From NCBI GenBank assembly GCA_023091665.1, contig JALJCQ010000011.1, positions 1 through 64,000 of the forward strand: DNA of 64,000 bases, given 5' to 3'. The notes under the pieces were generated by a model. It was not told where the DNA came from, did not search any database, and saw nothing but the letters and a program-made list of their open reading frames with translations. Shown in pieces: positions 19,142-57,461 of this stretch; the first letter of the stretch is position 1; each line of letters starts with the position of its first letter. The translations under genes and the position numbers were made by a program. Source of the stretch: Pythium myriotylum. Taxonomy: Eukaryota; Oomycota; Peronosporomycetes; Pythiales; Pythiaceae.

Positions 19142-19183
19142 ATTCCCGAATGGCCAGAGCGACAGCTTCAACACCGGCGCAAG

Positions 19184-19349: not shown

Positions 19350-19904
19350 CCCTTCACAGTATCGCCGATATAGCGTGAGTGCCTATAAACAAATTGCTTT
19401 ATAAACGAATTGCATTGATTTTGATTTATATCTGTTAAAAACGATATTTGACAATTGGTAACACGTATCCTGTATATACAGATTAGATTCGCTTTACGTC
19501 CAAACCGGGGAGAAATTTCACGGGGCGGCTTGGGATGGATCTTGATGGAAATGGCTGCAACGTCTCGTTGGGATTTCCAGATCACTTTCGGTGTCGCATT
19601 CGGTCACACTGTGGTGCTGATATTGCCACTGCTATATAAGTATCTTCACAAGCAATTCGTGACTCAATGGCGGTGGATGGATCGGCTCGCCCTACTCTCT
19701 CTCTTAGGATTCCGCCGAGGGCATTTCAAAGAGAAAAGTCAGACTGTAGAGATTCTCATGCCATCGCCACGAGACTTCACCGCAGCGGTGCTTCAATCCA
19801 CGTTACACGTACCTTGGGAGGCAGAGAAGGTTCATGTCGTACTTTGAAGGATCGATCCAGTGCTACCAACCTCAATCTCAAGCCCTCCTTCAACGCCCTG
19901 CACC
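19350..19904. other. Intergenic between PDX2 and the WD40 gene
   Basis: Contains the upstream side of the WD40 gene. An open frame at 19455-19847 (130 codons) has a hydrophobic stretch ([18 protein letters not shown]), but no support as a gene. AT-rich around 19380-19450. Confidence 0.35.
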
Positions 19905-21681: not shown

Positions 21682-24600
21682 CTACGTTGCAAGCAGCACG
21701 CGCTTCCGTCGCTTCTTCTCATTGGCCTTTGCCTCCAGGTCTTCTTGCTCCTTCACACTGATTTTACGTCCAGCCTTGTCCATCCACCCGGTCGCTCGCG
21801 ACTGCCAAGTCTTCTCCCGTGCACGTAGCACGTTCATTGCCTCCTTGCGGATGCTTAGCACCCGGTGCTGGGCAAGCGCCTTCCGGCTCTGAATCGCGCT
21901 CTCGGCCAACGACAACTTGCGATCAAACGCGTCTCGCTTCTGTTTCTCCTTCTCTTCGGCTAGACGGGTTAGCTTGTCGATCTCAGCTACGCGTTCATCC
22001 TCCATGTTTGCTAGGTACGAGCGATGCTCGTTGATAAGAGTGGGTGTCAGCGTGCCGTCTTCTCGGGCCTGTCGCTGCATTTCCACAAACTCAACTTCTT
22101 TCTGCTTACGTATCTCCAGCAACTCAGTCTCCCGCGCCTCTATTCGCTGCTTGGCGTCAGCCTTTTCCTTCACCATGATCTGCTCAAACGCCTGCACTTC
22201 GACGGCTGTGGCATCGCGCTTCTCACGCTCGAATATTTCAATGTCGCGTTCTACTTGGTGCACCTTCTGCTTCATTTCCTCATCGTACTTGATCTGCTCC
22301 TCCTCCAGCTCTTTCGCTTCTTCCATGAGTTTGACTCCATCCAGCCGCAAATCTTTGCCAAAGAACCAGTCGTCTACCTCTTGGATCTTCGCGCACATAC
22401 CATCGAGCTTTGCGCGCAGCTCCTGTGCAAGGTCCCGGAACAGAGCGTATCGCGTATCTCTAGCTTGCCAGATCCACTTGAGGGCGATCGCCCGTGATGC
22501 CTCGTTTAGTTGTAGCTTCCAGTGCACGGACGGGTCCTCCTCGTCAGAATCAACGTGGTCTTTCTTGCCCTTCCGTGCCTTTTTCGCTCGCATCTTCTTG
22601 GCGTACACCTCCATCTCTTGGCGCGCGCGATCACGCGGGAATATGCCGCCCAGTCGCTTGCGTGCTGCGATTAGCCACTTGCTCAGCACGCGCCCTTCGA
22701 TCGATTGGCGAGCCACGACCACAGGCTCAAACTGGACGTCGTCTTCCTCATCCGAGGAGAACTCGTCACCTCGTAGCTTGCCTCTCAGCGCCGCAGGTTG
22801 CTTGACGATGCGCGCAAGTCGTTTTTGCTCCAGTGCCGAGAGACAGACGTTGCAGACGGTGAGGTATTTGGCATGTTTGCGGAAGTAAGCCTTCCAGAGG
22901 TCTGCATCTAGCTCAACCTCGCCGTACTCACCTTCGAAGCCGGAGATAAGTCGATCGATTGCGATATGGTCCTGTGCATTGCCCTCGGGGTTTGCGAGAT
23001 CCACGTGCATCGTGTAGCCTCCTTCCTCGCTCTTCTGGCAAATCTCACACGATGACTGCTTGTTGTTGGCGATAATCCCTGCCACGAGCTTGGCAAAAGT
23101 GCGCCGCTTCCGCGCGCGCGCGAGCCAGTACAACGCGAGGTCTTTCGATGCACCGTCAACTGGTACATTCGACCAGTTGCGCCGCATCTTCTCCAGCCCG
23201 TCCTCCTCATCGGATGAAATATCTGAGCGGTCTCCTTGAAGCCTCCTCCCTTCGCCCATATTTATGAGCTCGTGGTAAATGTCACGAACGTATTCCGTAT
23301 TGGGACGGCCATCGTTGCCGATGGCTTGTAGCGTGCGAGGTGTGAAGAGCTCAACAAGGTGCTGAAGTACCCACGGTCGGTTGCGCTCCATAAAGCGATG
23401 GCGGAACCGCTCTGAGTTAAGCGCTTGCAACTCAAGTCGCTCTCGCTCAAGGTCTTTCTGCCGTCCAGCCCCCAAGGCAAGCTTGGCGGCAAGCTCCTCA
23501 TCTAGAGTTCCGTCGAGTTTAGTCTGCTTCCAGACGCCAAGTCGATCTCCAAGACGGATACACGCAAGCTCAAGTCCTCGTGCGAACAATGAAACGATGA
23601 CCACTATCAGCATCGTGAGCACGTCACCGAACGGCGAGTACTGGTATCGCAAGCAGACAGTGGTGCCAAACATCATGAAGAGCATCCCAAATGCATAGAA
23701 CGAAACGAGAAAGTAGAACTGTGAGCTGAAGCACATCATGTCGATCGCTTGGAACGCTGGATGAATGCTTTCATCACGCGGACCTTGTTCCATTTGCCAC
23801 CGCTGATCACGTGTCGCGAATCGGTGCTTCTGGTACGAAATGTACTCATATATCTTCCAGCCATGGACGAGCTCAAGAGTGTTCAGTTGGAAAACTCCCA
23901 TAATGAAATTGCTGGGGATGATGAATAGAGCGTACAGAGAGTAGTAGAGCAAGTCTGTGCGCTTCACTCCATAAAGCTCAGGCATTCTTGTGTCAGCGCT
24001 GAAGACGACCTGAAAAAGCAATACAAGTGGGGCAAGAATTAGCTCTGTGAAGACGATGCTGTAGCCGGCGACCCCTTCAAGTACTGACTCGACACCAGCA
24101 ACTTGATTGTCAATCTTCTCACAAACTCGGCGCCACTCAGCCTCCTCATTGGCTTTCTGTTCGCGTGTGCGGCGCCGGCGCTTCTGTAACTTCCGCTTTA
24201 GCATCATTCGCCATTTTGGATACAAACCCCATAGATGGCGAAGTAGAGGGGCGAAGTAGAGTCTTTCCATGATGACAAGACTGAGGTTCACAAAATAGAA
24301 GAACGTGAAGCCGATGAAATCAGCCGAACCCATGGCAATCATGCTCTCAGTTGCCGAGAGGACGACTACGAAAGGGATTACCAACATCTTTTCGTGGAGC
24401 ACTGTCTCGATCACAAGCTCAACGATATTGCGGACCACCTTGAAGAGCAGAAGGAAGGCGTAGATGTTGGCCGTGAACATAGACGAGTAAGAAAATTCCC
24501 AAATAACGATGAGCATAGCCATGAAGCCTCCGGTGGTGAGCAGTAGATTGGCTCGTTTCCAACGACGTGGATCCCAGAACTCGTTCTCTTCCGGCTCTTC

Positions 24601-27600
24601 CTTTTCTTCATTCATTTCGACTTCGTAAGGGTCTTTTGGCGCAGCAGACATCTCTTTGTAAGCATTATCTTCGTACTGCTGGTCCATCGCCTCAGGAATC
24701 ATCAACTTGGCCCCGAGGGCGAGCATGTATCCACCTGTAACAAGCATACTCACGCCAATACGACCCTTCTTGTACTTCGTTACCCGTGTGTTGTCGAGGG
24801 ATGTTTGATCCAGCCAGTCCCCGGCGAGGCCTTCGAACGAGACTGAATTCGGGTCTGACAGTGGTGCTTTCGACGAGAACAGGTACCACCAAGAGTAGAT
24901 AAACACACAGATAATGGCGACTGGAATGGACGTCAGGAAGATTCCAGTGCACGGCGGGATCGCAATATTCCTAAGAAGGATCTTCATGCGAAATTTGGGG
25001 GGCTTCTTCATCTTTGTAAACAGGCGATTGATAATGTATATGATCATCTATTGCGCGGATGCAAAGGTTAGCGAAGTCATCCAAACAGAGCGCCTCATTA
25101 GCATGGCCACGTACCCCGAGCGTGATACTCAGCAACCCAACAAGCATGACGAAGCCCAGATAAACGTCTACAGTAAACTGGAACTGGTTCATCAACTCGA
25201 ACCACGTTAGAGGGATCCACGATATCTGCAGTTGGTACGCTGTTGAGGCAATTTGGTCTGTTGCCTTGCTGATTGCACATGGCAAGATGCCCTTCTTTGC
25301 CATTTTTGCAATGATGTCGGTCGAGCGTGAGATCGTGCACAGCCGACCGAAGTCAAGCGATGCCTCAACCAGTCTCTTTCTTCCCGGCCCTATCTGATAG
25401 TAGCTCAAATTCAGATACATCTCCTGAGGAACTGCTAATTGTAGCCCACCATTCCCAACAACTAAGAACATTTGGGCTCTGTCAGTTCGTTGATGCGACG
25501 AAATGCGATGGTAGGGAATACTTACCTTCCACCGCCACAATACTATCGGAGCCGATGAAGCCTTGAAATGTATCGGATTGACCCCAATGTGAGCCACTAC
25601 TTGGTTGAGCGACAAAATCATCCGGGCTGATCGGGTCTCTTGTCATGTAGAATAGCGTCGTACCGGCTTTGGTTTCATACCAGCGAGACTTTTCAGCTCC
25701 ACCCTCAAGATTCTCTTCGTACTTGCACTCAAGTGCTATCCCACGCTCGTGAGTCTCGACCAAGGGGGGCTTTCCACCTGACTGTAGCACTTCGTTTGTG
25801 TATTGGATAACGCATTTATCAGCGTTTGGTACCAATTTCTTCTTCCACGGGTATTGATTTACTTCAACTGTCTCGTCATAGGTCACAAACTCACAGTCTG
25901 GGTGTGATTCGAGAAGCTTTGAGATCCAGATATGTGAGTCGTAGCCTCGACATGACGAAAAAAACGGCAGATACGGTAGAGCAATGAAACTCGTGCCATT
26001 CAGCTTTTGGTCCCACCACGAATCGGATCGCTGTACAGAAGCCAATGGGTCTGGAACTTGGTACAAGCCAAAATAATCTGTCGGAGCGTGTACTTCGTTA
26101 CTCGCAGTGTCAATATCACTAGTATTCGAGGAAGGATTGGACACGAGCACACCGATCGCGTTTTGCTGAGAATTGCGGATGAATCCTCTTTTAGCAGGTA
26201 GTCTCGGATCTCCGACCATGATGTCGGAGATTCGGTCGATAAAAAGTCTGTCTTCTACATTACTTTCGTACGTCAGCGTGCCAAGGACTCGCTGAAGAGA
26301 CTCAGGTAAATTGAGCGGTAGCATGATTGAGTCGTATGAATCCTTCTCAATGAACGCAAAGAATGCATTGTGTGAAGGTGTAAGAGGGGTATAGTCGGCG
26401 CGAGACGGTGTAAAGACTGTAAAATCAAATCGGTCTTCCGTAAAACTCTGACGAAAATCCCGAACATATAAGCCGTGCAATAATTCCACTGTTATTGTCA
26501 ACTCGGTTCGCTCCAGGGCAGACAAACTGAATTGCAGGTATCCGTGCTTGTTGTCGGGAAATCCAAGATCCAGAGATGTACTATCCTCAAAATAGAATGG
26601 CATCTCCTTGCGCTCACACGAACAACAGCCTGGGTACGGTGTGTCTGTAGTCGAATTGTCAGCATTCACTTTTGGAATCGCTCTACGGTCACAGTAAAAT
26701 GGCATGGGGTCACAAATGCTCGTGTCGTTTCCATTCTCGTCCAAACACTTAGTATACAGCTGATCACCAAACGTTGTGTCTCCGTCGGGATATGTGCATA
26801 TCGGTGGAATAGATTTGAGATTGCAGCGGTAGCGAGGCGGACATGGCTTGCAATCCGCATATACAGAAATTTGGTAGTGGTCCTTGTACGTGATGTTGCG
26901 CGAAATGCCAGTGGTGTTGATTGTGACTACAGCAACTTCTAGTGGTTCAAGAACCACTGTCCCGATACCAACACCGGTTCCTGATAAATCTGCATAGTCT
27001 GAGCCGTTGAGGAGCCTAGAATGGGTGAGGGGGATCGGGGTCAACCGTTCTAGAACCTCCGAACCTGTTTTCACACAATCATAAATATCGTTTGACCCTA
27101 CGACGCTTGATGTGCCGTTTGGACATTTGTACAAATTAGCACAAGCGCACGTGTCGAGACGGATGAGCTCCTCTTCGTTGTCGTCCACGAAACCGACCAG
27201 CGACGGTGTTTCTTCTCCAAATGAGTCAATCAGCTGAAGCGCATGGTTCAAGTCAAAGAGATATGGGTCCACACTGAGTCGCGAGGACGGTATATCACTC
27301 ACTTGTCCAGCATACTCTGCAGTTATCAGCGCCTTCAGTTCAGCGTAGCTTTTCAACGTTGACTCGCTTGTCCAGCCTGTTCGAAACGTCAAGCCGCCAC
27401 GCGCAATCTCAGCTGCTAAATCTATTGTTGCCTTCGACCCCGTTGTCTGTTTGAAAAGACATTGCTTCTTGCTATTGGTTGCTACTGGCCATCCAAACAG
27501 AGTAGGATTGTATACCACTGGTTTCGGGTGTGACGGCATGACCGTGCATTTCCACAACTGGTACACACGACGAACTGTCCTTGCTTGAGTCTGGCAATCA

Positions 27601-30600
27601 CACTCGTCACGGCGAATGGCGAGATCGACCATGCGCCACCGATGATCTCGCGCACACTTGACGTCATTCTCAGTTGCTCGATTCACGACGACACGGTGAT
27701 TTTTCCGAGTTCGTAAGTTGAAGATTGTAAGGAGGTCGTCGTCAATTCCGTTGAAACAACGCATGTCATGTGCAGAGACTACGCGAACATCGCCCTCCCC
27801 GATGTACTTTGTGTGCGTAAGGTCGTAGAATGGATCGGCTTCAACGGCAGAGAGCCTTCGCCGCAAGGCATCATTCGCAGACGCTCCAATGTACGGATTC
27901 ATCGTTCCTGTCGGACAGAAGTATCCAACTGGACAAGTATTTCTCGTCTTTTGTGACTCTGCCGTGCCTTCAAGACAGTACTGCGATGCTGGACACAAAT
28001 GACGCAATTGACCTTGTGGAGCTTCGATGCTCAGATCTGGTGTGGTTCCGGCTGAGCAAACGTATCCTCCCGGACAAAGATGTGCCGTAGCAGTCTGAGC
28101 AGTCGTCTCTTGGTCGCAAACAAATCCTTCTGGGCACGGTTGCGCCTGGGCGACGGTCTCGAGCGATATAGATGCCGATGAAACAGTTTCCGGTGCGGCA
28201 CAGATGATGTCAGCCTCACACGTGCCGGGGAACCATTGGTCAAGGTGGAAGAAGCCCTTGGTACAATTTCGAGCTACATCGTACATCTGAGAGACGGGAA
28301 CGTTGATAACGAGTGAGCCACGCTGGAACATATTGGGCACGGGGAGCTGGTTGATATCACCGTAGCCTTGGTGTGGCGTACCAGTCGCAATCTCGTATAA
28401 GGCACCGTGAAAGTCCGCAATACGCTGGTACAACACTGAGCCAAATGGCTGGTGGTTCTCGTAGCAGCGCCCGCCGTCTCTCGACGGCAGAAAATGAGGA
28501 CCTCGACCATATTCATCTATCCACGGCTCCAAGAGCACCCCGTAGAAATATGCTGAGCCCTTGATGAGACACTCAGTGTATGATAACGACTCTGCAAGCG
28601 GGGTGTATGCCGTTGGCAAGTCGTCCTTAGTGCACGGATGTGTGATACCGTCGATCGGGCAAACAGTACCGGGAGCACATAGCGTGCATTCTTCCACTCC
28701 TCGAAGTTCCCAGTTCTTGGACCAGGTTCCCTGAGGACACGCCAGACACGAAACTCCATCTGCTTGTAAATTGCTGCGATAAGATCCAGGCCCACAGACT
28801 GTAGCCACTGCGGTCCCGTCATTTTCACAGCTCGTGCCAGGTGGACATGGAATACACTCTGTGGACTCGATGGTCGGGGCGTAATACCCTGGGGCACACT
28901 GGGCTGCAGAAACCGTGCCTTCGACCTCTGCAAAGCGTCCTGGATCTGTAGGGATTGGAGCTGCAGTACCTTCCGGGCAGGTGAATCCAGGAGGACACAA
29001 GCCTGAGCCCTTTGGAGAAAATGAGCCAAGCTCGCAATAGAAGCCAGCGGTACAATTCTGTGCATATCGGTAGTCGCCTGGGCGCACGTCATCGGCAATG
29101 ACACCTTTCAAGCAGTAAGTGCCGGGTTTGCATGGATACGGACGAAGCCGCGTGTCGTTTCGGAAGGGATCCACCGTCCCAGTACCTTCATGGCAGTAAA
29201 ATCCAGCTGGACAGAGGCTATTCGGTGATGACAATCCTTCTTTGCTACACACATAACCCGGGGGACAAAACGCAGGCATCAATCGGTTAAATCCTGGGCA
29301 TATGTAGCTCACTGGGCAAGGAGTACACTTCTGCTGGCCGACCATGCCATTGTATGAACCTGGTGGGCACGCCAGGGGGGCTACCAGGCCACTGCGTGGG
29401 CAGTAGCTGCCGGCAGGGCATGGAATACGAATGCCAAACGGACAGTAAAATCCAATTGCGCAGTCTCCGAAGCCCATAGGATTTACACTCCCTTCAGGAC
29501 AGTACATGCTTTCAAAGCACGGCTGCGGTTGCGAGAAATTCTTCATCATGACCGCTTGTCCTGCTGTACCCGGGTGGCAGTATGTTCCGGGTGGACACGG
29601 TACTGGCCGTCGAAGAGCAAAGCTGGTCGAGGAATAGTCGAAAGTCTCATCGTTGGCATGCATTTGATTAGCGTCCCCAAAGCGCACGCACGAGTCATCC
29701 AAGCAAAATCGTCCCCTAATCGGAGCGAAAATTGCATCTGGACTCAACGGCAGCTGCCGAAGTTCACTCCAGAATCGATTCGGCTTACCACTGAGCTGCA
29801 GGCCAAAATCAGTTGTCTCGTTGTTCCAACAACCACTCTTGCGTCCCCCAACACCAACAAAATTAGTTGGAAGCCTTCGTTCGCGTCGTCGGAGAGTCGT
29901 CGGGGACTGAGTCTCCACAGCTGATGTCCGAACAAGACTTGTCTTGGCCTGTGGAGAACAGGTTGTCGACGCTGTCGCGGTACCTTCTAAACAAAAATGG
30001 CCCTCCGGACACGGCTGGTCGACCTCTTCAATACCAGTGACATCACACACAAAACCTGGAGGGCAAAGGCGTGGTACATGAAGTCCGTCATGGGGGCAAT
30101 GATATCCGACCGGACAACGATAACAGGCTGATTGGCGCTTCTGCGGCTGATAGGTTCCTCGTGGGCACAGCGTGAAGTTCCGATTTCCAGTACCTGGGCA
30201 GAACGCCCCACGAGGACATTCGAGACTGCGTCCTTGCAAGTGCTCCGGGCAGTAAGATCCCATCGGGCAAGGTCCCAGAAACTCGAAGGTGAGATGGCTT
30301 GAAGTGAAGTCTTTTCCATTATTGGAGACCTCGACAATTGCATTCGAAGCCACATGCGATCGTGACGAGTGCGCTTGAGAGTCTTGGTAGCTATTCGAGT
30401 TCGTCACCATACAAAGCATTAGCTGTGGACTGATAAACGTGGCGCGAAAAATGTCGAGACCAACGCGACAGGATAATGATGTAGTGTTGATGAAGGCTGT
30501 GCCGTGCAGAAAAAGAGGGATCAAACCTACATCGTAAGCTTTGACGGGGAACAGCGCAACTAGTTCAGGGTCCTGATAGTAGAGGTAGTTCACCCCCGAC

Positions 30601-33600
30601 AGCGTGAATTCTTGCTGATTGTTTGACACTTCAACGGCCACCAGTCGTGTCAAGTACTGTGGGTAGTCGTGGGAATCTGGAAAGAGGTATACGCTTCCAC
30701 CGCGGCGTGCTGGATCTGGATATGTGTTTCGGTATTCAGACAATGGGGCAGGAGCCAGTCCCCCACTGTACTTTGACACGGGCGGTGACCGACACCTTAA
30801 TCGAGTCGGATCGATATACTCGGCGGGCGTGACGATGAAGCCAAATCGACAAGACAAAAGCGACGAATTGACGTACCCGTATCCTTCCACTGTTACCACT
30901 GTTCCCGCACTGTTTGCAGGACCGAACATGGGATCAATTCGCGTCACTGTCTGCTCTGAGTAGTAGATGAACGGATATCCTGTATCTGTGTAGTCCTGGT
31001 TGTTCGAAGTCACCTCAAGCGGAACGATGCCGGCGCGATACGGCGGAGCCATGCAAAGAATCTCGCTGAATGACTTCCATGTTCCAACGACGATGACTCC
31101 ACCAAAGCGACAACGAATCGTATCAGTCAGACGAAAGGGCCCCCCCGATAAGACAACAGAAAAGTTGCCGAGGGTTGGTCCTAGTGAAGGAAAGACGCTG
31201 TCAATCACCAGCTCCGAGTCATACGAAAATATCACTTGATTTGCGGTGAACAGTTCAGGGGATGCATCGCTGCCGTGGTTGGATACCTCAAGAACTATAT
31301 CCCCCGTAATGTTTCCGCTTGGTGACACACATGTGAGGTGGGTGGTATTGATATACGTAGCTGCAGCAAGGACGGAGGATGCAAAGAGGCAACGTAGAGA
31401 TGAAGAATTGCGGAAATTCGCCCCACGCACTGTCACTTCCGTGCCTCCACGTAGCGGGCCGTGCGAAGGCGAGAGCGCGAACACATCAGGCGTCGGCGTG
31501 TACTGGAAAATGACACCACTCGAAGAGAAATCTTGACCATTGGTTGATACTTCCACGGCAACTTTACTACCGCTAACGCCAACTCCGTGTTGCAAACGTG
31601 CAATAGTTGAAGAAACCCGACTCCCATTTAACCGACTAGAGTCAACTTGGATCAAACCAGTGTTGCCGAACTCGACAGGGAACGTAAATCTCCACACATA
31701 TTTCCAGTTCGGAATGCTGAGTCCTTGTGTTACGATCACGGTTGCCAGTTCCGGGATAAGGGATATCTCATTAGAGATTAGAGCAGCTGATGCAGTGACA
31801 GGGATGGCACTTGTGACAGCAGGTGTGCACAAGCCGCCCAACGTGAGTTCAGTACATGCTTGGCCTGACTGTAGCGTGAAGGTTCCTGTCAAAGGCGCCG
31901 TGGACGACTTGTATTGTTGGATGTTCACGACAACACCAGGGGGTTGGGATCCAACAAATTGGATTGAAAGCAGCGGTAGTACCGCTGCAGTTTGCTCCGC
32001 GAACAGTACCATCCAGGTAAATCCAACCCCAATGGCAGAATCATACTGCTCTACTTGAACCGCGCCCATCGCTGCAAACCCACCTAACAACGACTGAAGA
32101 TCACTTGCACTCATATCAGTATAGCCCATGACAGCACTAGCAGCACCATTCCACATGACTTGGAAAGCAGCTCGCGTGATTATCAGAGGGAAATATACAG
32201 AAACTGACTGAATCTCGTTGAAACTTCGAGCTCTTACCAGATTCACCATTACGGAAGGATTGGGCCCAACCAGCCGAGAAGGAGCCGTAACAACAATAGA
32301 GGAAGGAGCTTGCACTGCAGCTGCGAGACTACGGAATGTAATATCCCACGTGATGTGATTTTGAGAAATCCACGTGACTTCGACGTCGACATCCTTCACG
32401 GTGCTGAGATCATTCAGTGCTGCGGCAATTGTGTTAGCACTAGACTCCAGGGGTAGGCTACCAGTTGTCTGTCCCAGAAACGAGAGCTGCACAGCACCAG
32501 AGAGCCGAGAGGTCTCGATGGACACGATGTTCACGTTCACACTCACATTCGTCCCAGTGAGAGTGTCTCTGAAGGTGGGCACCAGCATTTCGGAGGGGTC
32601 TCGGAGACCGAGGGGAAAGGTCACATACCATGTCATCGCTCCCGCCTCATCGGGACGCGCACGTGAGACTGTGAGAGTGTCCGAATCGGGAATTGACTTG
32701 AGGTACCGCAAGGTGGTTTCCATGTCCTCTGCCGATACATTCCACATCATGGGAGGTGTCTGAACACCAGCGTACGTGAGAGTAAACGATCCGTCGAGGT
32801 GCTTTGTCCCATCTTGAACGGTCGTAGCTTTGGTCTTAAGTCCAACCCCAGTGAATCCAGGCTCAATTTCGATTGCCAAGAGTGGGGTATCTTCGACTGC
32901 TGTGGAGAAAGTGACACGCAGTTGCAGTCCATGAGCATCCAAATTATTCTTGCGGGTCACAGATGCAATCGACGGCAACACTCTTAGAGCATTAAGGATG
33001 TCGCCCTCCTCTGCATCCACCGCAAACGGCTCAGATCCAAGGTCACTTGAACTGTTTAGGCGAACTTGACCGATAATTTGATTGCCTGCCTGTTGCTCGG
33101 TCACAATAACCTGTGCAGCTTGACCACGGAGACCACTGGGATCGCTTGCAAGCAGTTTTGTGTTTCCATCTGAGCTCGCGAATGTAACATTCCAGATGCT
33201 ACCACCGTTTGCGTTCGTCCCAACTGTTGTCACCGTCACGTTAGCAATGGAAGAGAGACTGTTCAAAGCTTGCTCTATGTCAGTGGTTGATGCACTGACA
33301 TCTAGTGTAGGCGTCGACTCATTTGCATATTTGAGACGAAATGAGCCGCTCAGACTGATGCCAGTGCCTTTAACCATCTCAGTGATCGTCTGCTGCGGAC
33401 CGCAGTCAAGTTTGGGCAAATCACCAGCCCATTCGAGGAAGGTGACAACCCACGGGCCACCATCCTTACCGCTCACGATAACCCCACCCATTCCGGACTC
33501 AGCAGTGTTATATAGAGCATCTTGAACTGCTGCTGCACTTGCATCGAATGCAATAGTCCTAGAAAACCGCGGATTTAGTGTACATACAAAAGTCCCACTA

Positions 33601-42600: not shown

Positions 42601-45600
42601 TCTCCCCACTCACATTCCACCATATAGATTTCTGGAGTCGAGACCGACTCGCGAAAACCGATAGTGGCCGTTAGAATGGTATTAGTCCCAACGGGGATTC
42701 GGGAGGGTCTGATGTACTCCGGTTCCAATGGCGGCAACACAACCAGAGTGACGCTAGTGTTCGAATCAAAGTGTTCTCCATCGTACGCGACAAAAATTGC
42801 ATACTCACCAGGGTGAAGGTACCCACTCAGTGTCGCCTCACACTCCATTTCTCTAGGAGAGATTGCTCTAGCAGTTCCGACTAAGTCTCCGACTCGGCAG
42901 AGGGAGGACTCAGAAACGAAAAAATTGGCCCCTTGGATGCGTAATGACCCATCAAACTGGCTTGTTATAGAGTTCGGGATCAATCGAGCGACAACCGGAC
43001 TCGGAAGGTACTCGAACTGGACGGACGATCCCGCCGTCTTGCCAAAGCGATACATAACACTCATCGCCACCACACCGGGGGACGCGACAGGCGGTGCTTG
43101 GCACGAAACTGATGAGATGTTGATTGGAACGGCTTGAACCGTCATTGAATCGTTGAATGAGCAGACTAACTCCTCGTCAAACGCATTGACTCCGGTTATT
43201 GCGACAGTTAATTTAGTGCCGCCGGTGATAAGTCCGCGAAGATTCGTTGCTCTCACGATGGATATTTTCTCGCGGACATGAAGAGGAAGGGACCCCAACG
43301 TTTTATCTGAGAACAACACCTCAACCTTGAACTTGCCCACCCAGTCGATAGGAGCGATGTCGAATCCAACTACGATAGATCTCTCCTCGGCAATGCGAAG
43401 GATTCTACCAAACGCAGTACGGATCTGATAGCCTTCATCACCAATTATACGTGTCTTAAAGTTGGTCAGATGGGAAGCTGAGAGATTTCTCACGAACACT
43501 TGCAAGACGAAATCTTGATCTATTGTCACTACTTGTGGTTCGAAACGAGCGTCTCCAAGTTCAGGTAGATACTCCCAGACAAGAGAAGTGCCACCAACTA
43601 TTTGATAGCTCACCCAGGTTGACGCGACATTATCGTCAACAACAGAGCCGACAAATAATTCCACACGAATATTCCCAGAGTAATCCGTGAGCCTTGGCAC
43701 GACGCAAGCAATGGTACTACCCGAGAGCCAAGTTGAGGCAACCTTTCGTGTTCCAAAACTGCACCACGAAGGGATCGCCTCATGAAAACCACGTCCAGTG
43801 ATGGTGATGATATTTTGTCGAGAAATTTGTCCGAATAAAGGGTAGGCGCTAATCACTTCCGGGAGCGGAAGAAACTCGATTTGGAGTGGATGGATTTCTT
43901 CGAGAACATTAACTTTGTTGGACGAAACAGATACTGACATTCGCTTTGGGTAATCGACGTCAGGTATGCTACAGCTCAGCGCTGTACGTGAGAGGACAGT
44001 AGCGTCAGCAAGAAAACTGTCACCCAGTATACATTGAAGAGTGTCGAAGGCTGTAAATCCATCGCCCCTGAGGATCACTCTTCTGAGTGCCCCCACATAC
44101 GCAACTTGCGGAATAATAGAACGGAGCCTTGGTGGTGCTGAAACTTCAAGGGCAATGCCTGGGCTGACTGGTTGACCATCTTTGAGTACGTCGAGAATCT
44201 GAAAGTGAAATTGGGGCTGAGAAATAGCTGGAACAGCACAAGTTACTCTGTTCGTGACCTGCGTGCGCTGTGCCAATACATCATTTTTCCCAAACCGACA
44301 AACCAAATCGTCATCACCGAGATCGAACGAGCCAATTAGCAGCACTTCACTCGTAAAGCCCAACGTTACCCGTGAAGGAATCACTTGGTGGATATTCCGA
44401 TCCTGCAATGGTCTCGATCTAGGATTAGCTTCAAGAATCGACCCTCGATCGTTGCAATGTAGCTGCAGAAGTAGGTCAACATAAGAGCGTGATTCTGGCC
44501 GGGCACAATCCACACTGCTATATGTACGCGCAGTGCTAGGGAGAGCGATATCGCCGAAATTACAAGACAACTGGGAGCAAAACTCGGCCGATAGCTTCGT
44601 AGTTGCTGATATCGCGACGGTTTGATCGTGGCGAAAGAAACTGGAAGAAAGCATGTTGGGCGGACCGCCTTCCACATTTAATTTGAGCTCCGAATTCACG
44701 AAGTCGACACCATTCACTGAGAATGCAAAGCCTGCGGAGCCGGGCTGAGAGACGTTGGCGTTGCAAACGACGAGGTTCTCAGACACCCAAGTAGCACGAG
44801 AGAGCGGCATTGTGTCACCAAAGCGGCAATACAGTGTTGATGATCTAGGAAAATCAGATCCTGTCAGCTTGATTAGTTGCGACCGCCCAGCTGTTACAAC
44901 TCCTGGATTGATTTGACGAACATTAGTATCTTGAGCAAACAGAATCGGAGGCGACTCAAGGTAATGCTGGCCATTGATCGTGATCTCAGTTCGTAGAAGC
45001 CCTGGTCGAGAGAATGATGGAACGAGGCATTCCATCACTGTTGAAGATAGCGAAGTTGCCTGAACTATTCCTCCTCCGATCTGACACCCAACATGATCTG
45101 GCGTCTCTCCACTTGAAGTAGCGCGGTATCCCTCAATGTTGAAACGGAGGCTACCTCCGTTTGCCAAGAGTAATTGGGGTTCGACGGTCACGACTCGAGC
45201 TGGGAGATAGAATTGGACGCTGCTGCTTTTCCCATCACTATCTTGGCCGTTGGATGAAAGTCGAACGGAGATGTTTTGGATAGTCGATTTTATCTCCCAC
45301 CCGGTTGGGTCAACGACACATATCGCCTCTGTACCGTTTAGGATGGTTGCAGGAACTCGATTATCCCCGAAGATACACAAGGCGTACTCAGAGACAACGA
45401 AGTTCGATCCGGACAAAACGACGACGCTAATTTCATCCATCGGCAGAAGAGAAGGGGTCACGTAGTGAAGTCTAGCTATGTCGACGTACTGGAATACAGC
45501 AGATGCCAAGCAAAGAGAAATCAAACCGTCAAACTGCAAGGAAACATTCGCTGTGCGAGGCATATAGCTCATATACTCTGGCATGGCACATCGGAACGAA

Positions 45601-48600
45601 TCTGCGGAGGTTTGGACTGCTGGTACTTGTCTCGAACCTCCGACAATACACCAAGTCCTATAACCAATCGGGAAATGATTACCCTTGAGCGTTACAACTG
45701 TTCCTCCATTAATCGATCCAAACGAGGGTGTGATGCTTGTGACTTCGAACAGTCGATGTCCAGCGATCGTTAATCTCACTATTTCCTCGTCGATAGTTCC
45801 GTTTGCAACGGAAACAGACATGATACCGCGGTCATTCTTGGTGATGTTTGCAAATTGACACTCTATGGCTGAGCCGTCGTCGCTAGAGACGAGTGTCGCG
45901 TTCGAAGCCTGCATGCATACTCCGTCGCAGTTGCAATGTTGGCACCTAAGAGGTATCTTGACTAACTCTGCTCGTCTTCGATTTGATTCAAGTCTCGCAA
46001 TCATGACACCTTCAGCAGGCTTCACTGTAGACGACAACTCCCATCTATCTTCAAGCAGAATCTCGAGTGCTGGTGCGGCAATACTAAGAAGAGCCGATCC
46101 AGTTGGCCCGACATCAATAAGAGAGACTGTAGTGGCCACCGCAGATAAATGCGTAGGAACCAGACATGACCCGATTGAATCCGACAGTGCTGTGAACTGA
46201 GTCAATTGCTGTCCGATAACACATCGAACATTCCTCGACGCATATTCGAAATGTAGTCCTGTCACATGTATCTCCCCACGAGCCCTCGACAGTGAGACAT
46301 AGCGAGGCTGGATGTCAAGTATGATCGGACGGGGGATAACCTCGAAGTTTGCTTCTTCAGTTGAGTAGTCTTGCAGATTATTCGTTACTCGCACAGTTAT
46401 AGCTCTAGGTAGCAATAGCTGTACCGAGAGACAACGAATTCGAACCGGAGAAATAAATTGAGCATTCGCAAACTCGGACTGGCCAATTCGACAACGAAGG
46501 CTAGAAATCGGTATAAATCCTGTGCCGACAACTTCAATATCAACGTGGGCCCCGCTCCATCCGGTCGAGGGCTGAAGGGAATACACCTTGGGTGGTTGAA
46601 TATACGAAAAGGTTAGCGGGGTTCCCGTAACAACGCCACCCGCATCAATGGAAAAGTTCACAGTGATAGGCGCGATTGAAGTCGGACGGGTAATGTTTTG
46701 TGGGGGCGTGGGGCATGTTAGCTGTGACGCAGACAAAACTGCAGCCTCGGAGACCACACCACCAAACAAGCAGCGGTATGTCATTGAATCAAATGGACCT
46801 CCCGTAACAAATATCCGTGTTCCACCTTCAAGCGGACCATTCATCGGTATTATCGCTGTCACTGCCAAACTGCTTGGAAAACACACATTGACGCTATCAC
46901 CGTCGGCAGGAACTCTCTGTCCTCCCATGGAAAGGTAAATATTAGTACAGCCACCTCTAGCGCTGAGATGGGCTGCCGAGCAAATCAATGATGTAGTATT
47001 AAAAACCACCGCTTGTTCTTTTACACCATCATCAAAGTGACACCACAAATCGGAAGAGTCAGTAAATCCTTGACCTTCGAAAGCAATATGGTTGATGATT
47101 TCGCCTCTTTGACCAGTGATCGAATGTATGATCGCTTTCCCAGCGCGCGGAAGAGGCACAACACTAATTCGGTGTATGGAACGAGAACACTGCACATCGG
47201 ATACACACATCCGAAGTTGAGTCTCTCCTGGTGAAAGGGCTGGGATCAAGCACGTCGCACTCAACGGACTGTTTATGCGTGCACGAACCCGTGCGGAGTG
47301 GAAGTGACAGTAGACTGGATCATCTGTGGGGAAGTCGTAACCATCCACACGAACAGAAATGCCTCCAATCTCTGGTATGGTTGACGGTGTCACCGCCATT
47401 ATCGTTGGTCTAGGAATGATCCTGATATTTGACTTATACAACTGGTCTTGGTTTGATGCATCAACAACGATCAATGACACAGGCACAATCATGGAGCGGT
47501 TCGTCAGCACTTGTGGGATGACGCAATTCATCGATGTAGTGTCGATGAAATCGGCAATCACGTCGATTGAAGTTTCAAAGACTAAGAATCGACAAGCGAT
47601 CGAGGTCAGATTAGGGTTGAAATTGGACCCTGATAAACCTAAATGGTACATTTCATCGTCCGAGCTAAACAGCACAGAAGGTTTAACATCAGTCACAGAT
47701 GGCGAGGCGACAAAGGTGAATAAGAGTTCGTCTTCGCTGAAGTCGATGCCGTTATTCGCAAGCTGAACAGCGACGGTGCCAACTTGCTGAGGAGACACTC
47801 GACAGACAACAACAGAAGAATTGATGAACGTCTCAATAGGTGATATAATTCTGCCGAAACGACATCGAGCTTCAGTCGAGTTGATAAACCCGCTCCCGTA
47901 CACAACAACCGAGGTCGATTTGGTGTCTAAACCTGATATTCTGGACAGGTGACTAAGCATAGGTCGTACTAGATTCCATCTGAGTTCGCCGACTATTCAA
48001 GAAAAATCAGAGGCAAGCCTTACCAGCGATAGTTAAGAGAAGGGAAGAAGCGAAGTGGTCAAGTCCATCAAGGCGAAGATGCAAGCGTGCAGAGCCTGGC
48101 ACCATTGCGGGTGCTATGCACAGAACGGTGGTGTTACTGATCATCACCGAAAGCTGTGTCACGACGTCAAAAAGATTGTTTGTTCTGCGAAAGACACATT
48201 CCACGCGATCGACGGAGATATCGTACTCTCCGACAACGAGCAAAGGAGTGCCACCATCCTGGGACGAGATACCAGGGATAACATGACGAAGACTTGGCTC
48301 ATCTAGGAATGAAGATGTTGGCATGAGAATCCACAATCCAAGAATGCGCACGATCTGTACTACGCACCTAGGTAATGGAACACATACGGGGCAATATCTG
48401 ATTCAACAATCGCACCAGTATCCTCGGAAAAATCCAGTCGAACTCTCGATTCGACGTCGCTCCTTGGTGGCACTTGGCACTGAACATGAGTCGAAGAGAG
48501 GAATTTGGCTTGGACCTCAGTGTTGCCCACCCGGCACAGCAACTGCGACCCAACCAAGAACCCTTCTCCTGCTATCGAGATCGTCGTCGTATCGGACGCC

Positions 48601-51600
48601 CACCCGTGAAGCGGCCATACCCTAGATATTGTAATCCGAGCAGTGTATTCGAAAGAGATAGTTCGAGGAAGCAAATGCCCACTGTGTATAGATGTGCACG
48701 ACACGTCGACAGTATGTATGCCAGATGTTGAACGCGGAGATCGGGTTTGCAAGGTAGTCGCATTGATTCGATGAGCAGACACACGACTGGTACCGAAGCT
48801 ACATTCGTAAAACGGCTCATCAAAATCAACACCGATGATGTAGATGGACGAGTTGCCATTTGCTGAGCCCCTGGGAGGGATGAGCGAGAATACGCGGGCT
48901 GATGACAAAAGCTTCAGCTCGACTGAGTTGGTCTCTAGATTGGAACTGCCATGGGTGCGGAGCCGAACTGTGCTGTACCCTACTGTATTGGCTGGAATGT
49001 TACACTCGACCTCGCTCGACTTTATAGATGTTGCCACTGTTGTGCTATCGTCGCCAAAAACGCAAACGTACGCTTCTGAAGGAATCAACGATTTCCCGTA
49101 CAATCGAACTACGCGGACCTTGTCCAAACCTTCCGAGACGTTGAGGTGGGTGATGTTGAATTCATCCAGTACAAAGAGTGTTGCGGATGAGTTATCTGAG
49201 TCAAGGTTCCAAGTCAAATTATCCAGCTTCAGTCCAACATTGACCACTCCGATGCCTATTGACGCCGTCGTTAGTGAGCACACAGCATCCTGGCCGGATG
49301 AATTCACAGAGGCATGGACTACACTTTTGCCGTAGACGCCGTCGAAATGACAGTATGTGGAACCGACGACAAAGTTGCGCCCTTGAAAGGTTACGTTGGT
49401 GGGTTCTTGAGAGAGAAGTAGTAGCCTTGGGTACACAGAAGCAACTTGAACAAGGTTGATAACTTGGAGTGGGAAACTTGAAGAAGACCAGTGAATGAAG
49501 TTATTGGAGACACGGACGACCACTGAGTCTGATTTAGCAGTCATTGTTGGTAAACTACAGATTGCAGTGGAAGCGGAGAGCACGGTTGCATCTATTGCAA
49601 TGGCGTCGCCGAACAAACATGAGAAGTTTAAGTGTGATAAAAAGCCGCTTCCATACACCATAACCTTGTTCTGACGTCCAATTTGGACGATTGTTGGATT
49701 GAGGCGGGTAATAGCTGGTTCATTATACAATTCAATACGGGATGACCCTAAATCTTCCAGTGTTCTGATGTCACGCAAAACCACAAGATTTGCCGAGAAA
49801 TGGCCCGCTAGTTTACATCGGATGCACCTCTCAGCGTATGGCGTCCCTGGTTCCAAGCCAAGTACATCGTCTCCGCTTTTGTACAAACATGCGTATCGCA
49901 CTGGATCCTGATAAATATCACCCGAGCATATTGTAAAGGCACTCTCGCTGGCACGTGGAGCGTTTGCTGGTATGACTTGGAGAGATTGAGGAGCCGGTGC
50001 AACTGCTGCGATATCCAAACCAGAGTCGTAGAACTCACTGCCGTCGATTCCCACGAACAACGCGAGCTGCTTTCCAGTAAATTCAATTGGCAAGACAACG
50101 CCATGACACATCAGTGTATGTGCTTGTGCAATACAGTCACATCGAAACTCGTCGCCAATTCGAACGGTATAGACAGATAGGTTTGAGAACAAACCTCCGA
50201 CAATAAGAACTGTTGCGTTCATTCCAGTGTGAAGTCGAGATGGTAGAATTTGAGTGAAGATAACAGGATCTATAGTCGTAACATTCAGGCTCGTGTCGAT
50301 TTGCCGATTATCGTCAATTTTGACCTGAATCCGTACAGCACGATCATTATCAGACGAAATAGTTATCATCGAACAAGTCATGGTGGTGGAGTTAATCACA
50401 AAAGCTTTAGCAACAGTTTGGTTGTAACAGCACGACATTGGCAACGGAATCATGCCCGGCAATATGAAATTTGACCCCGTGATGGTTACGTTGGCTGCAT
50501 TTGAGCTGAGTGGGAGTTGTTTTGGCTCAACATTGAGAAAAGTTGGGTCACGGTAGACATTCACATAGCCAGCATTAGTCCAATGCATCCCGCCATTCAT
50601 ACTCACCCGTAGCAATGTTGTCTGCACATGCGTTGGAGGCTCAGAGAATCCGCATGTGATTGTGTATTTTGAATCAACAATACCGGTGGCGGCAGTATCA
50701 CCAAGATTGCACATAACTGGCGTCATTGGAATGAAGCCCGATCCATGGATGGTGAGTGTAGGGGCAGTACTGCTCGAAACAAATCGCGGTCTGACGTTCG
50801 TCACGAGAATGGCATTGTGCACGGTGAATCCCCCGCCAATAAACTCGGAGAAGTCGTTATCATTAAAGGATACACCGATAGGAAGGACTAGAGGCTCATC
50901 GGGCAACAACATGGAGTCACAAAGGACCGTTCTCGGGTCAATGAGTGTCCCACGTCGCAATGTAGTTCCAATCCGACAGGTAATTCTTGCAACTGAGGAG
51001 AAGTATCCTCCCTTGATACTCAGCTGAAGTGTGGAGTTGATCGGAGCATTTGACGGAACCACTTCAGTGATGACAGGCGGCGCATAGTAGCGAAAACGCA
51101 ACTGGGGCCTTGAGAAGTTGATCCCATTTAGAGAAACAGCTACAAAAACATCTCGATCAGACACACTCCCGATCAGAGAAGGTGTAGAGCAGCTGACTGA
51201 GTCTCGGGATAAAATACTCCCGGGAACAATCATGCCTCCAAACTGACAAAGTATCGAACTGCCGATACTGACCGTGTCAAAAACACCGCTGATGCGAACG
51301 AGAGTTTCGCCGGTTGCAGGGCCGCATGAAGGGGATATAGCGTGGAGGATCGGCTCCTCGTAGACAATATATCGACTTCCGTATTCTTTGAAGTCGTCCG
51401 ACAGATCTTGGCCATTATTCGACACACGAATCGTGTACGTGCCGGTTTTTAATTGATTTGGAGGAGAGCATCTTAATACTCCTCCTCGGTTGTCAGCTAG
51501 ATATGTAGCTGGTGACTGCCAGCTTCCAGTTTCCATTTCAAACACACATGAAGGAGAACCTCTTGCAAAGTTTTCGAAGTTGCTGCCCAACACAGTTAAA

Positions 51601-54600
51601 GTCACAAGATGACCAACCGGCGAATACCGAGGAATGACCTCCGCGACACTCATGGGAAGTTCAACACGGAAGGTCACAGGGTTAGAAGGTGTTTCAACGT
51701 CGTCGATCAATATTGTCAATTCGACAGCACCCGGGTTATCGAAAAGGGGAGTCGTGCAGCGAAGAGAGCTTCGAGATACAAACGCAGCTGAAACCACTTG
51801 ACCACCAAAACGACACCAGTAATTGAAATCTGGCGAGTAGTTGGATCCAATAATTGCTACGATCGTCCCACCTCTAGTCGGTCCGTTTGGTGGTGCCGGG
51901 TATAGAACAACGGGGAAGCCTTGAAACGTAACGGGAGGGGAGTTCGAGAAATCGTGACCATTCACGGAGATGCCGATCAACATGCTGTACAATTTGCCGA
52001 GATCGCTTCTCCGATTTTTTACAACGCACCGCAGCCTTGCTGAAGAGATGAATGTAGCAGGAACAAATTCTTCTTCTGTTCGAACGCTGAGAGCCGACAC
52101 ATTTAGAAAACCACTCCCGAATACGTCGAGCGTGATGTTGTCATTCTGCATTGATTCGGAAAACTGAGAGGGAGACAAGCGGTGAACTTGTGGGCGTTCA
52201 ACAACTCTTAACTGAGCAACGACAACGTAGTTGGCTCCATTGGGAGACACCAGAAGTGATAAGATTCTTGGATTCGCAGGCGTTGATGACGGCATGAAAG
52301 GCACCCGACATCGCACCTCACCCGATACTGTGAGAAATGGCTCCACTGTTGTCACTTTTTCAACTTCATTCGAGACAAACATGCACAAAGGTCTGTCTGC
52401 CCGATCTTGACCAAAGCTTGGGCTGAGCAAGACAAGTTCGGAGCCTGTGTGCACAAGCTGATTCTTGATGTTTACCATTTTCACTTGATAAGGTGCGGAC
52501 ACAGTAATAGTCGCAAAATTACTCGCTACTCCTGCATTTCGTTGCAGAGAGAATTCTTGAATGCCCTGGAAAGATGATGGGAGTCTAAAACGGCAGCGCA
52601 CTTGAGTTGAAGTAACGTAGTCTGCTACGCAAACCGCATTTTCTCCAACAAAGCACGTATACACGCCGCGCTCGAAGTTCCAGCCGTACACATTTAGAAT
52701 CAGATCGTCCTCTGATGGCACCTCTGTTGGGGAGATTCTTGTAATAGCTGGTCGGGTTCCCATGTGATGTTCAATTTGAAGCGACTTTGTCTGGCGAAAA
52801 TCAACCACTTGCGCAGACTCCGGTTGAAGGGATGCGAGCGAAACCGCGTAACGTGCTCGTAGGGGATTCTCGCTGGAAACAGCTGTAACCAATCCTTCAG
52901 CCATGATGTTCAGGTCTTCAGTTCGAGCACTTCCTTGAATGATAACTGAATCACCTTGAGATGTCAATCCATCGCTGTCTTGGCGGAAAGTCGTCACAGA
53001 TGCACTTGATGACGTGGGAGGAAGCGTTACAGTTGGCGATCGAACTCCATCGATCTCAATCTGGTACGACGTAGATGAACGATCTTCATCTTCGTCTGGA
53101 TCCGAAAATCGAAAACCCTCAATTCGGAACGATGATCGGTCCTCAGTTGCGAAATGAGGAAACACGTCAATTGTGTTGAGATGGATATGAACTACCGCGT
53201 CACTTGATTGTATACCTGAAGTAGCACCACACCGTGCTGTAAACACAAACGACGTTTCTTGTCTTGTATTTGATGCCGATGGAGCCGAGTAGAACACATA
53301 CCCAGTCGACAAGACTGCCGAGGTGTCGATTAGAGTTGATACAACCCATCTGCTAGTAGCTTGCAGTGGCGATGCACCTTGCTGCTGCCGCTCTGCACGA
53401 AAAAGGGCCCCCACAGATGGACCTTGATGAACTTTGAGCACGACGTCACACCCAATCGGATTTAAAACTCGGAGTTCAATCAGCTTTGAGTCTCCACTCG
53501 ACATAACAATCCAGTTGCCAACGTCAGCTGCAGAAACTGCGATGAACCCGTTGCTTCCACGAATTGCACTAGGATCTTTAGGATAAACGACAACATTCAG
53601 TTCAGCGTCGCTTGGAGTCGCTGTCGCTTCACTCGATATTATCAAAGATGAGAATGCACAACTGTCGAATGTCCACAAACCGACCACACTATCTTCCAAT
53701 CCTGTGAGTTTCGTAGTCGAAACGCGATACAGTTCATCGATAGTGTCAAATGTTTTACGCCAGAGTGAGATTTCATCAATTTGCCCCAAGAACGGAACAG
53801 GTGCAATCCCGAATCCATTCTGACACGGTCCGATTCCAATCTCCTCCAGTAGTATAAAGGGTCCCATTGTCGAACGTGCCAAGTCCACCGATAAGAGCTC
53901 GTTCACGTACATGCGGAAGTGAGTTTGTCCCCACACGAACGCGACGCGGTGCCATTGATCGAGCCGGATAGTTGCTCGAGGGAAGAGCCAGTCTTTTGAA
54001 CCGTCAGAATTGGAGAAGAAAGGCATCGATTGCCTAACGCGGATGAACCAGACGGCACGACTATCATCAAGGCTCAGCCATACTGTAGTGATCCTGTCGT
54101 CATTCTCACGGAACTGACACAAGCATACGGTCCCATCTGTAGCAGATACTCCATCGCCGTCCAGCTTGACCCACATGAATAAACTCCCATTCCGACTAAG
54201 ATCACTAGGCACCAGCGCTGTGAATCTCGCTTGCTCCATGGGACTAATCAGCTCCATAGCGTATCCAGCAGCACCAGCAGCGACGAGAGGTGGCAAAGGA
54301 GCACTCCTGCTGAGCCGAAGATAGTCCAACTCACTCTCTGAGAGGGCATAGTCGAAGAAGAACACACTCTTGATGGACCCATCGATGCCACTCCGAGATT
54401 GATCGGATGACCCAATAAGTGCAGTTGACTGCAAGAGGAGACTGATTTCCGACCCGCCATCGAGATCCACCATCTCAGTGCCTACATAGAGTCGCGTCTG
54501 TATGGCATTGGCCATTTCTTCAAACACTCCGGCCACAAACACCCACTCGCCGCTCGGCACGGACTTCTTCAGCACGGTCATGTTCGCTACCACCCACTGC

Positions 54601-55070
54601 CCCGCGTCAACGCAGACAGACCGACCAGGTGGAAACCCGTTTTGGGATAAAACACACCCGCGTTGGTGCTCAGCCCCGTCGAACTGGACCCACGCGCCCA
54701 TAGTCAGCGCTGGGAACTGGCGTCGGTGGATCGGCAGCGGGAGCTTGACTCCCGCCATCGAGTTCAAACGAAGCCCGGTCTCATCGTTGCTATCTGCAGC
54801 AAACACATTATGGTCCTTTCCATGCTGCATGAACCCCGCGGCGAATCCGCTCGGCGCGTAGTCGAGTCGGTCGCCGGCGAGCGGGTAGTACGCGACGAGG
54901 TGGCGCGGCCGCAGGGCGAGGATCGGATCCCATTGCGGCACTTTCACGGCGGCTCCTGAGACGAGACGCACACCGAACGACAGAGCGAGAAGCGCGCAGA
55001 ATGACCGCGCGGTCACGGCCGCGTGGTGCCGGCCGCCGCGCGCGTTCGAGGGGCTTCCGATCCGCGGCAT
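21682..55070 (-). CDS. Giant IPT/TIG-repeat multi-pass membrane protein, five exons, ~11,050 residues
   Basis: Exons (complement) 48368-55070, 48024-48302, 25526-47968, 25115-25476 and 21682-25047, with introns of 65, 55, 49 and 67 nt; all joins keep frame. Order: signal peptide (CALLALSFGVRLVSGA); two LamG-like domains (~54900-53640); about sixty IPT/TIG domains, marked by repeated cRFG and GSGF motifs (~52740-30300); two blocks of a second ~95-residue repeat (36900-35240 and 34490-31560); a Cys-rich region of GxYCPxG units (30280-27950); a long ectodomain end; about ten hydrophobic segments (25160-23560); and a cytoplasmic tail with three SDEED motifs, two CxxC pairs and a long coiled coil ending RRKRVLLAT. 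IPT plus LamG ectodomains are typical of adhesion or coat proteins such as fibrocystin-like ones, but this multi-pass C-terminus differs. The role is unknown; cell-surface adhesion is inferred. Confidence 0.87.
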
Positions 55071-55340
55071 GGGAGCATTTTCTTCTTTCCTTTGCGCGCG
55101 TCGTTTTGAAGGTTTGGTTGATCCAGTTGGGGCGGATGTACCGATCCGATGGTACGCTGTACCTTCGACGCGGTACTGGCTGGTTCTCGTCCGAACGTCG
55201 GATTCGACGGCAATCCGGGTCGGGTCTCGGTGGCTCCAGCCCGCGGGCCAGATTGAACTTGGGGGGATACGGAAGCAGCTTCCATTCGCGTGGCTGCGTG
55301 TCCGTCGCGTCAGAATCGATTCGGGCCTCCCGTCGCCGCC
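55071..55340. promoter_or_regulatory. Shared 270-bp divergent promoter region (giant gene / PCCB)
   Basis: The only sequence between the start codons of the 33-kb minus-strand gene and the plus-strand PCCB gene. No TATA box or clear initiator match was seen. The two promoters must be compact and may be co-regulated. Confidence 0.5.
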
Positions 55341-55708
55341 ATGGTCCGCGCCTTCGCTCTCGCCAAGCGCGCCAACGCGAGTCTGCTCGCGCACTCGCGC
55401 TGGTTCAGCGCCGCCGCGACCGTCACGCCCGCCGCGCGCAAGCTCGCGTTCCAGAAAGAGCTAGACGTGGCGCGCAAGCAAGCCATCGAGGGCGGCGGCC
55501 TCAAGCGCCAGGCCAAGCAGCACGAGAAGGGCAAGCTCACGGCGCGCGAGCGCGTCGAGCTCCTGCTCGACCCCGGCACGTTCCGCGAGTACGACATGCT
55601 CAAGACCCACCGGTGCTCCGACTTTGGCATGGACAAGCAGCACATCCCGGGCGACGGCGTGATCACGGGCCGCGGGCTCATCAACGGCCGCCTCACGTTC
55701 GTCTTCAG

Positions 55709-55743
<35 letters not shown>

Positions 55744-57139: not shown

Positions 57140-57423
57140 GAGCACTCTCATGCCTCTAGAAGGGCTAGAAACCCTTCGAAACTTTGTGATCCCGTGAAAA
57201 TGAAGCGCTGATCCTCCAGCGACGTTCTGTTCTGCGCACCTTTGACAATTGATATGAATCCTCTCAGTGGGACCCTCCCCGTGTTGGTGATGAGCCATCC
57301 CACACACGAGACCGATTTTGACTTGAAGATTGTATATGAACCCTACCCCTTCTTCCCCTTCATTCGTCGACAGTCGGGAGGTCATGCTCTCAATAGTGGC
57401 CTCCTGACCTCTCCTGGTGAAGA

Positions 57424-57439: not shown

Positions 57440-57461
57440 ATCTCCTCCTCCCGTAGCCACC

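Follow-up and report, generated by a model that had tools for sequence, protein, structure and literature searches.

TMEM16 proteins (anoctamins, PF04547) are built on a ten-helix core with cytoplasmic ends, and their calcium site consists of paired acidic residues in helices 6-8. OSCA/TMEM63 proteins (PF02714) have eleven helices, with the N-terminus outside and the C-terminus inside, and are not known to carry any giant ectodomain. Polycystin-1 joins a giant modular ectodomain of Ig-like repeats to 11 transmembrane (TM) helices and contains PKD, GAIN/REJ, PLAT and PKD_channel domains; fibrocystin/PKHD1L1, of about 4,000 residues, has a single TM segment and G8 and PbH1 domains. Here we analyse a 64,000-nucleotide stretch of the oomycete Pythium myriotylum (hereafter the window; the opening 64 kb of contig C11, GenBank JALJCQ010000011.1, in a genome of 58.7 Mb), in which one minus-strand gene at 21682..55070 encodes a giant protein whose predicted extracellular chain of IPT/TIG domains is followed by a predicted 11-TM domain and a large cytoplasmic tail.

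With polycystin-1 this protein shares a giant modular ectodomain with Ig-like repeats and, by prediction, 11 TM helices, and with fibrocystin/PKHD1L1 a large size, a surface setting and numerous IPT/TIG domains. Kinship with either was nevertheless rejected: no PKD, REJ, GAIN, PLAT or PKD_channel domain turned up when exons 1, 3 and 5 were scanned with Pfam, and no profile match to the PKD-channel proteins of the same genome was obtained, whilst for fibrocystin/PKHD1L1 the Pfam scans gave no G8 or PbH1 and the 11 predicted TM helices differ from its single one. A first-pass annotation, made from the sequence alone, had been unable to match the architecture to a described family, and our sequence, profile and literature searches likewise found none; no title or abstract start found in the open-access literature describes it. 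That annotation's proposals of one giant gene with a multi-pass anchor and a sizeable cytoplasmic part, and its order of domains, are borne out below; its suggestion of a cyst-coat adhesin is unsupported. We tentatively favour, at a little short of even confidence, the interpretation that the giant protein belongs to an old stramenopile surface family with a chain-coupled channel or scramblase membrane domain and a coiled-coil inner link.

Gene structure

The gene is intact and single. Its five coding exons (55070-48368, 48302-48024, 47932-25526, 25461-25115 and 25047-21682, all on the minus strand, as are the features given below) are separated by four GT..AG introns at 48367-48303 (65 nt), 48023-47933 (91 nt), 25525-25462 (64 nt) and 25114-25048 (67 nt). 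From the first in-frame ATG at 55070 the spliced coding sequence runs for 33,102 nt, equivalent to 11,033 residues plus a stop codon, with no internal stops and a predicted mass of 1,202,190 Da, close to the ~11,050 residues, ~1.2 MDa and four introns first estimated. On the minus strand, six-frame translation shows open stretches of 2,366, 7,504 and 1,121 codons, which splicing joins with the small exons 2 and 4 (93 and 115 residues). Given these lengths, and 57-59% identity to the three best relatives over 99% of a 2,669-residue query, the frame is not a chance one.

In 120-residue segments placed at the exon joins, homologue matches span joins 1 to 4 in 83, 67, 81 and 107 of 187 fetched proteins, respectively; joins 1 and 2 are surrounded by IPT repeats, which leaves joins 3 and 4 as the specific ones, and at these two the alignments show 0-8 gap letters in the seven relatives examined. 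The count at join 4 bears directly on the proposal that the locus is an artefact or two genes, with the multi-TM part encoded by a separate downstream gene or the array produced by assembly expansion. Several databases do present the last exon as a protein prediction in its own right (P0121-P0125 and others), and a last-exon search returned 43 proteins of 616-1,962 residues, limits set by the search itself. However, these separate predictions and the giant ones share contig sizes (P0009/P0121 23021, P0002/P0123 36697, P0001/P0124 35332 and P0003/P0125 38658), which points to exon-wise gene calling. Where the first-pass annotation looked to homologues and transcripts for a possible break, the last 1,400 residues of the giant protein are matched in the same open frame by 75 of the best 120 giants, 65 of which continue into the TM part and 10 of which end at the exon before it, and P0016, described by its source as an open reading frame (ORF) from a Trinity transcript, contains four IPT domains and the C-terminus in one frame. 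The divergence among the IPT domains is moreover greater than a recent or artefactual expansion would allow (see below), and we consider an artefactual or two-gene origin highly improbable.

Extracellular chain

The chain begins with a predicted signal peptide region (residues 1-42, 54945..55070; hydropathy peak at residues 24-42, starting from the first in-frame ATG), followed by two LamG/concanavalin-like stretches at residues ~60-475 (53646..54893, outer limits approximate and set by eye). Pfam assigns both to LamG_3 (PF13385) in exon 1, with E 2.6e-16 and the strongest match at residues 119-247, in keeping with the LamG pair noted at first. The main IPT/TIG array occupies residues 774-5996 (36927..52751), recognised by Pfam and a local TIG profile, and is succeeded by five copies of a ~91-residue repeat (residues 6013-6529, 35328..36878), three IPT/TIG domains (residues 6569-6818, 34461..35210), nine further copies of the repeat (residues 6904-7771, 31602..34205) and four last IPT/TIG domains (residues 7809-8177, 30384..31490), the latter two IPT groups being identified by the local profile. 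A small IPT set is retained in diatom orthologues. A Cys-rich CPxGxxC region of Ephrin_rec_like type, with a following Cys-containing part, completes the chain (residues ~8214-9640, 25995..30275); its Pfam match of 21.1 bits lies below the cut-off of 23.1.

Assignment to the IPT/TIG family is secure, Pfam TIG being found in exons 1 and 3 and three pieces of the protein matching PF01833 at 231.8, 550 and 98.7 bits, well over its curated cut-off of 20.9. An iterated profile built in-sample counts 60 domains between residues 774 and 8177, or 57 at domain E<1e-3, consistent with the ~60 first proposed; Pfam alone yields 29 independently passing stretches (6 and 20 at E 0.01, 3 at 0.05), so that the figure of 57-60 depends on the local profile. 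Pairwise identity among the 57 averages 23%, with a maximum of 45%, and the gene contains only one DNA tandem array, of 25 bp, which together indicate that the IPT array is old and diverged. The second repeat noted by the first-pass annotation is the ~91-residue unit, whose 14 copies form two blocks embedded in the IPT array; it was delineated by an iterated profile, and Pfam scans gave no family for it. It is present in 18 of 18 pooled relatives, at 2 to 31 copies each (an in-sample figure, the same proteins having built the profile), and its bearers include oomycetes, diatoms and brown algae. Six hydropathy peaks above 1.6 in the extracellular part were taken for beta-strand cores.

The 74 N-glycosylation sequons within residues 774-8177 and the LamG stretches close to the N-terminus also suit a giant adhesin or glycocalyx protein, in which the IPT/LamG chain would itself act in adhesion, spacing or coat formation and the 11-TM part would serve only as a strong anchor, without transport. 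We regard this as a possible alternative, of roughly one chance in three, and return to it where the membrane domain and its conservation are considered.

Membrane domain and cytoplasmic tail

A membrane-proximal ectodomain (residues 9642-9897, 25160..25991, crossing introns 3 and 4) is conserved, residues 9641-9900 being matched by 111 of the 187 fetched proteins. It leads into the predicted 11-TM domain (residues 9897-10412, 23548..25162), delimited from hydropathy, AlphaFold and VIA-align, in which TM1 crosses intron 4 and TM2-TM11 lie in exon 5. The about ten hydrophobic segments of the first-pass annotation need slight revision: nine are apparent on this sequence alone (mean hydropathy 1.6), and alignment-averaged hydropathy at 1.2 gives ten helices in exon 5 which, with TM1 over the exon 4/5 join, make eleven. 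Placing the N-terminus outside, on hydropathy only, puts the 626-residue tail inside, along with the two loops of strongest basic character and one acidic loop. This topology, eleven helices with N outside and C inside, would, if correct, resemble that of OSCA/TMEM63. Within the tail, a CxxC...CxxC pair (residues 10579-10647, 22843..23049) is a putative metal site, its cysteines being conserved in 32/37, 32/37, 32/39 and 34/40 alignment rows. The C-terminal segment (residues 10809-11032, 21688..22359) is modelled by AlphaFold as long helices at exon-5 residues 898-997 and 1002-1120 (100 and 119 residues), agreeing with the coiled coil previously suggested.

The AlphaFold model of exon-5 residues 1-510 has a pLDDT of 84.6 and a pTM of 0.87. 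In VIA-align the predicted TM domain aligns nearly end to end with nhTMEM16, mouse TMEM16F and Ist2; OSCA and TMC chains are absent from the resulting list of matches, an absence that excludes nothing. When the whole exon-5 model was used, coiled-coil matches dominated, except for the nhTMEM16 row. Unlike TMEM16 proteins, the giant protein has an extra N-terminal helix, a ~9,900-residue ectodomain and no visible acidic cluster for a calcium site: no acidic pair conserved at 75% or more was found inside the helices presumed to correspond to helices 6-8. Sequence methods gave no link to TMEM16 or to OSCA/TMEM63. Pfam returned zero families in the last exon; none of 41 members of the family alignment matched the PF04547, PF02714 or PF07810 profiles at E<=0.1; and profile-profile comparison with 10 anoctamin frames and 4 OSCA-like frames from this genome gave probabilities of 0.1% and 0.2%, respectively, against 65% for the anoctamin-OSCA positive control. 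The TMC profile matched nothing in this genome, nor in controls, and so says nothing on TMC. Foldseek searches against the PDB and against viral models gave nothing at E<=0.001, and a PDB sequence search returned only apolipoprotein and other mostly coiled-coil matches, all to the tail (best E 0.01).

The lack of a significant Foldseek or profile link to any channel favours the passive anchor of the adhesin alternative; set against this, such an anchor need not resemble a channel or scramblase fold. We consider the 11-helix topology and TMEM16/OSCA-like fold of the membrane module to be moderately supported. The signalling capacity supposed in the first-pass annotation gains a concrete candidate in the predicted TMEM16-like fold.

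Relatives and paralogues

When giants of 4-8 thousand residues were searched with the final 2,669 residues of exon 3, 285 proteins matched, of which the best 120, mostly without an organism name, were listed. Those named are oomycetes (Phytophthora, Lagenidium, Aphanomyces, Achlya and Pythium), brown algae (Ectocarpus, Choristocarpus and Hapterophycus), Heterosigma, Triparma, diatoms (Leptocylindrus, Thalassiosira and Cyclotella) and two animals, the closest named relatives by C-terminus being Lagenidium giganteum and Phytophthora species. The family is not oomycete-specific: it spans stramenopiles and includes a second, paralogous clade. The two metazoan giants, P0107 (Hemitrygon) and P0109 (Lingula), were rejected as relatives, their repeated matches being to the CPxGxxC part only and none to the membrane part. 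A search from the diatom member P0062 gave 30 rows including itself; Ochromonas danica is one of them, and a model with the prefix CCRYP another.

Ectodomain and TM domain occur together, by a coverage rule, in 92 of the 187 fetched proteins. A FastTree phylogeny of these 92 and the two genes of the present genome (94 tips, midpoint root) falls into two clades, one of 50 tips that holds the giant gene, with a printed support of 0.476, and the other, of 44 tips and support 0.998, that holds a paralogue at C11:2028165-2054868. Both contain named oomycetes and diatoms, the clade of 44 by one named diatom, Cyclotella atomus, so that, judged from these sequences, the duplication most likely preceded the oomycete-ochrophyte split. 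The paralogue (minus strand) consists of a 7,959-residue open stretch and an 823-residue one upstream, with 59+2 IPT domains by the local profile and the same C-terminal TM module at 29% identity; the count of two family members in this genome derives from a single search.

IPT array length differs between lineages, a variation that the adhesin alternative would accommodate. Named diatom orthologues have 4-7 IPT domains by the local profile (4 by Pfam in the two scanned), which indicates a tether that varies in length beside a C-terminal module that does not change. For a passive anchor, however, there would be no need to conserve the 11-TM domain, the ectodomain and the cytoplasmic part with its CxxC pair in oomycetes, diatoms and brown algae alike.

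Other large open frames were observed in the same genome. At C4:2811098-2827999 and beyond (minus strand) a 6,396-residue frame has Pfam IPT matches and a C-terminal multi-TM part, which is TRP-like by eye only and does not match the TM profile of the present family; frames of ~4,000 residues with IPT matches lie at C13:2254254-2266259, C4:1869344-1881934 and C16:448118-460000. Frames of 1,285 and 1,384 residues at C29:169693-170271 and 199265-199912 are possibly a bridge between the OSCA and anoctamin families, the former matching OSCA PF02714 (3.2e-7) and, below the cut-off, anoctamin PF04547 (6.1e-4), and the latter PF02714 weakly.

Life stage and location

IFT46 is found at two places in the genome, which accordingly has cilia genes. 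In Phytophthora cinnamomi, TIG is one of the ten leading Pfam domains listed for the zoospore proteome, whilst the corresponding top-10 lists for mycelia and for the secretome do not include it (PMC8360494); this indirect datum is the sole one on stage, and a cyst-coat adhesin is unsupported. The main text of a P. parasitica zoospore membrane proteome, in the portion available, makes no mention of IPT or plexin domains (PMC12223298). PF01833 is listed as differing in Plasmopara secretomes, a result not drawn on here (PMC7217449), and a virus-invaded P. parasitica contig is reported to carry several IPT/TIG protein copies of probable oomycete origin with guessed nuclear roles, which may or may not be kin to the present family (PMC8204020). 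In the parts available, PMC10662313 concerns plant CAMTA, and PMC12221091, PMC3471859, PMC6742357 and PMC5322657 hold nothing relevant on TIG/IPT, the hits in PMC3471859 being TIGR and a journal DOI.

PnMas1 and related stramenopile mastigoneme proteins lack a TM segment and have a signal peptide followed by 3-4 EGF-like domains (PMC12223298). They are secreted, Cys-rich proteins of zoospore flagella, as the giant protein may be, but it was rejected as a member of this group since it does not show their combination of EGF-like domains and no TM. The known hair proteins leave the role of membrane link vacant, and the giant protein might be a structural part of the flagellar surface, e.g. the membrane link of the tripartite tubular hairs (mastigonemes), with its coiled coil holding the axoneme. 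Both the zoospore listing of TIG and the organism range agree with this, in that the named matches, the two Cys-repeat-only animals aside, are stramenopiles with a flagellated stage. No row named a pennate diatom, Nannochloropsis, Peronospora or Hyaloperonospora, but we give this no weight: most rows are nameless, only the best 120 of the 285 matches were listed, members escape through the length limits and through gene models made exon by exon, the P0062 search missed the known relatives P0040 and P0016, and Plasmopara, P. sojae and T. pseudonana, which have flagellated stages, are also not among the named rows. A structural flagellar role appears improbable to us. A motile, flagellated stage is probably the setting in which the protein acts.

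Neighbouring genes

Pfam identifies as neighbours a protein kinase at 11083-12693 (plus strand), a DUF2009 non-canonical E2 at 13807-14868 (minus), an SNO glutamine amidotransferase at 18173-19585 (minus), an M18 aminopeptidase at 57242-58927 (plus) and a p25-alpha domain protein at 59273-61960 (minus). Two plus-strand frames antisense to the gene, at 21917-22888 over the last exon and at 55001-56128 (375 residues, no Pfam match) over the first, are probably shadow frames.

Proposed mechanism and implications

In the interpretation that we favour, a long outer chain, with LamG near its tip and then IPT domains, ~91-residue repeats and a Cys-rich stalk, would be joined through the conserved ectodomain to a membrane domain of one extra N-terminal helix and ten helices in a TMEM16/OSCA-type arrangement. 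The chain would bind or catch an outside surface, matrix or flow; the pull or binding, relayed via the ectodomain, would open or regulate the membrane domain, acting as a channel or lipid scramblase; and the coiled coil would tie the protein to the cytoskeleton or to itself. The TMC channel of hair cells with its cadherin tip link, in which an outer filament pulls on a channel of the TMEM16 superfamily, offers a functional analogy only, since tether and channel are separate proteins there and a single chain here. IPT domains measure roughly 3.5-4 nm, so that 57-60 of them would give the chain a reach of some 200 nm. The fullest form of the proposal, a TMEM16/OSCA-fold channel or scramblase gated by mechanical force, with its own tether of ~200 nm reach in one polypeptide, predating the oomycete-ochrophyte split, with tether length tuned by lineage and the membrane module fixed, we hold to be unlikely as a whole.

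Giant Ig-like multi-TM receptors are already known; what is new here is the joining of an IPT tether to a module that appears TMEM16-like, a design shared across stramenopiles. Even without the channel reading, the locus reveals a surface-protein family, exceeding 1 MDa in this genome, across several major stramenopile groups, in which the membrane part and the ~91-residue repeat are both without a Pfam match. Were the fold and function to prove true, the family would add a new and remote branch to the TMEM16/OSCA fold, invisible to sequence methods, and would be a natural one-piece gated tether, with force sensor, cable and cytoplasmic link in one chain. It would then be a candidate sensor of flow, touch and settlement in diatoms, brown algae and water moulds, a question for zoospore and gamete biology.
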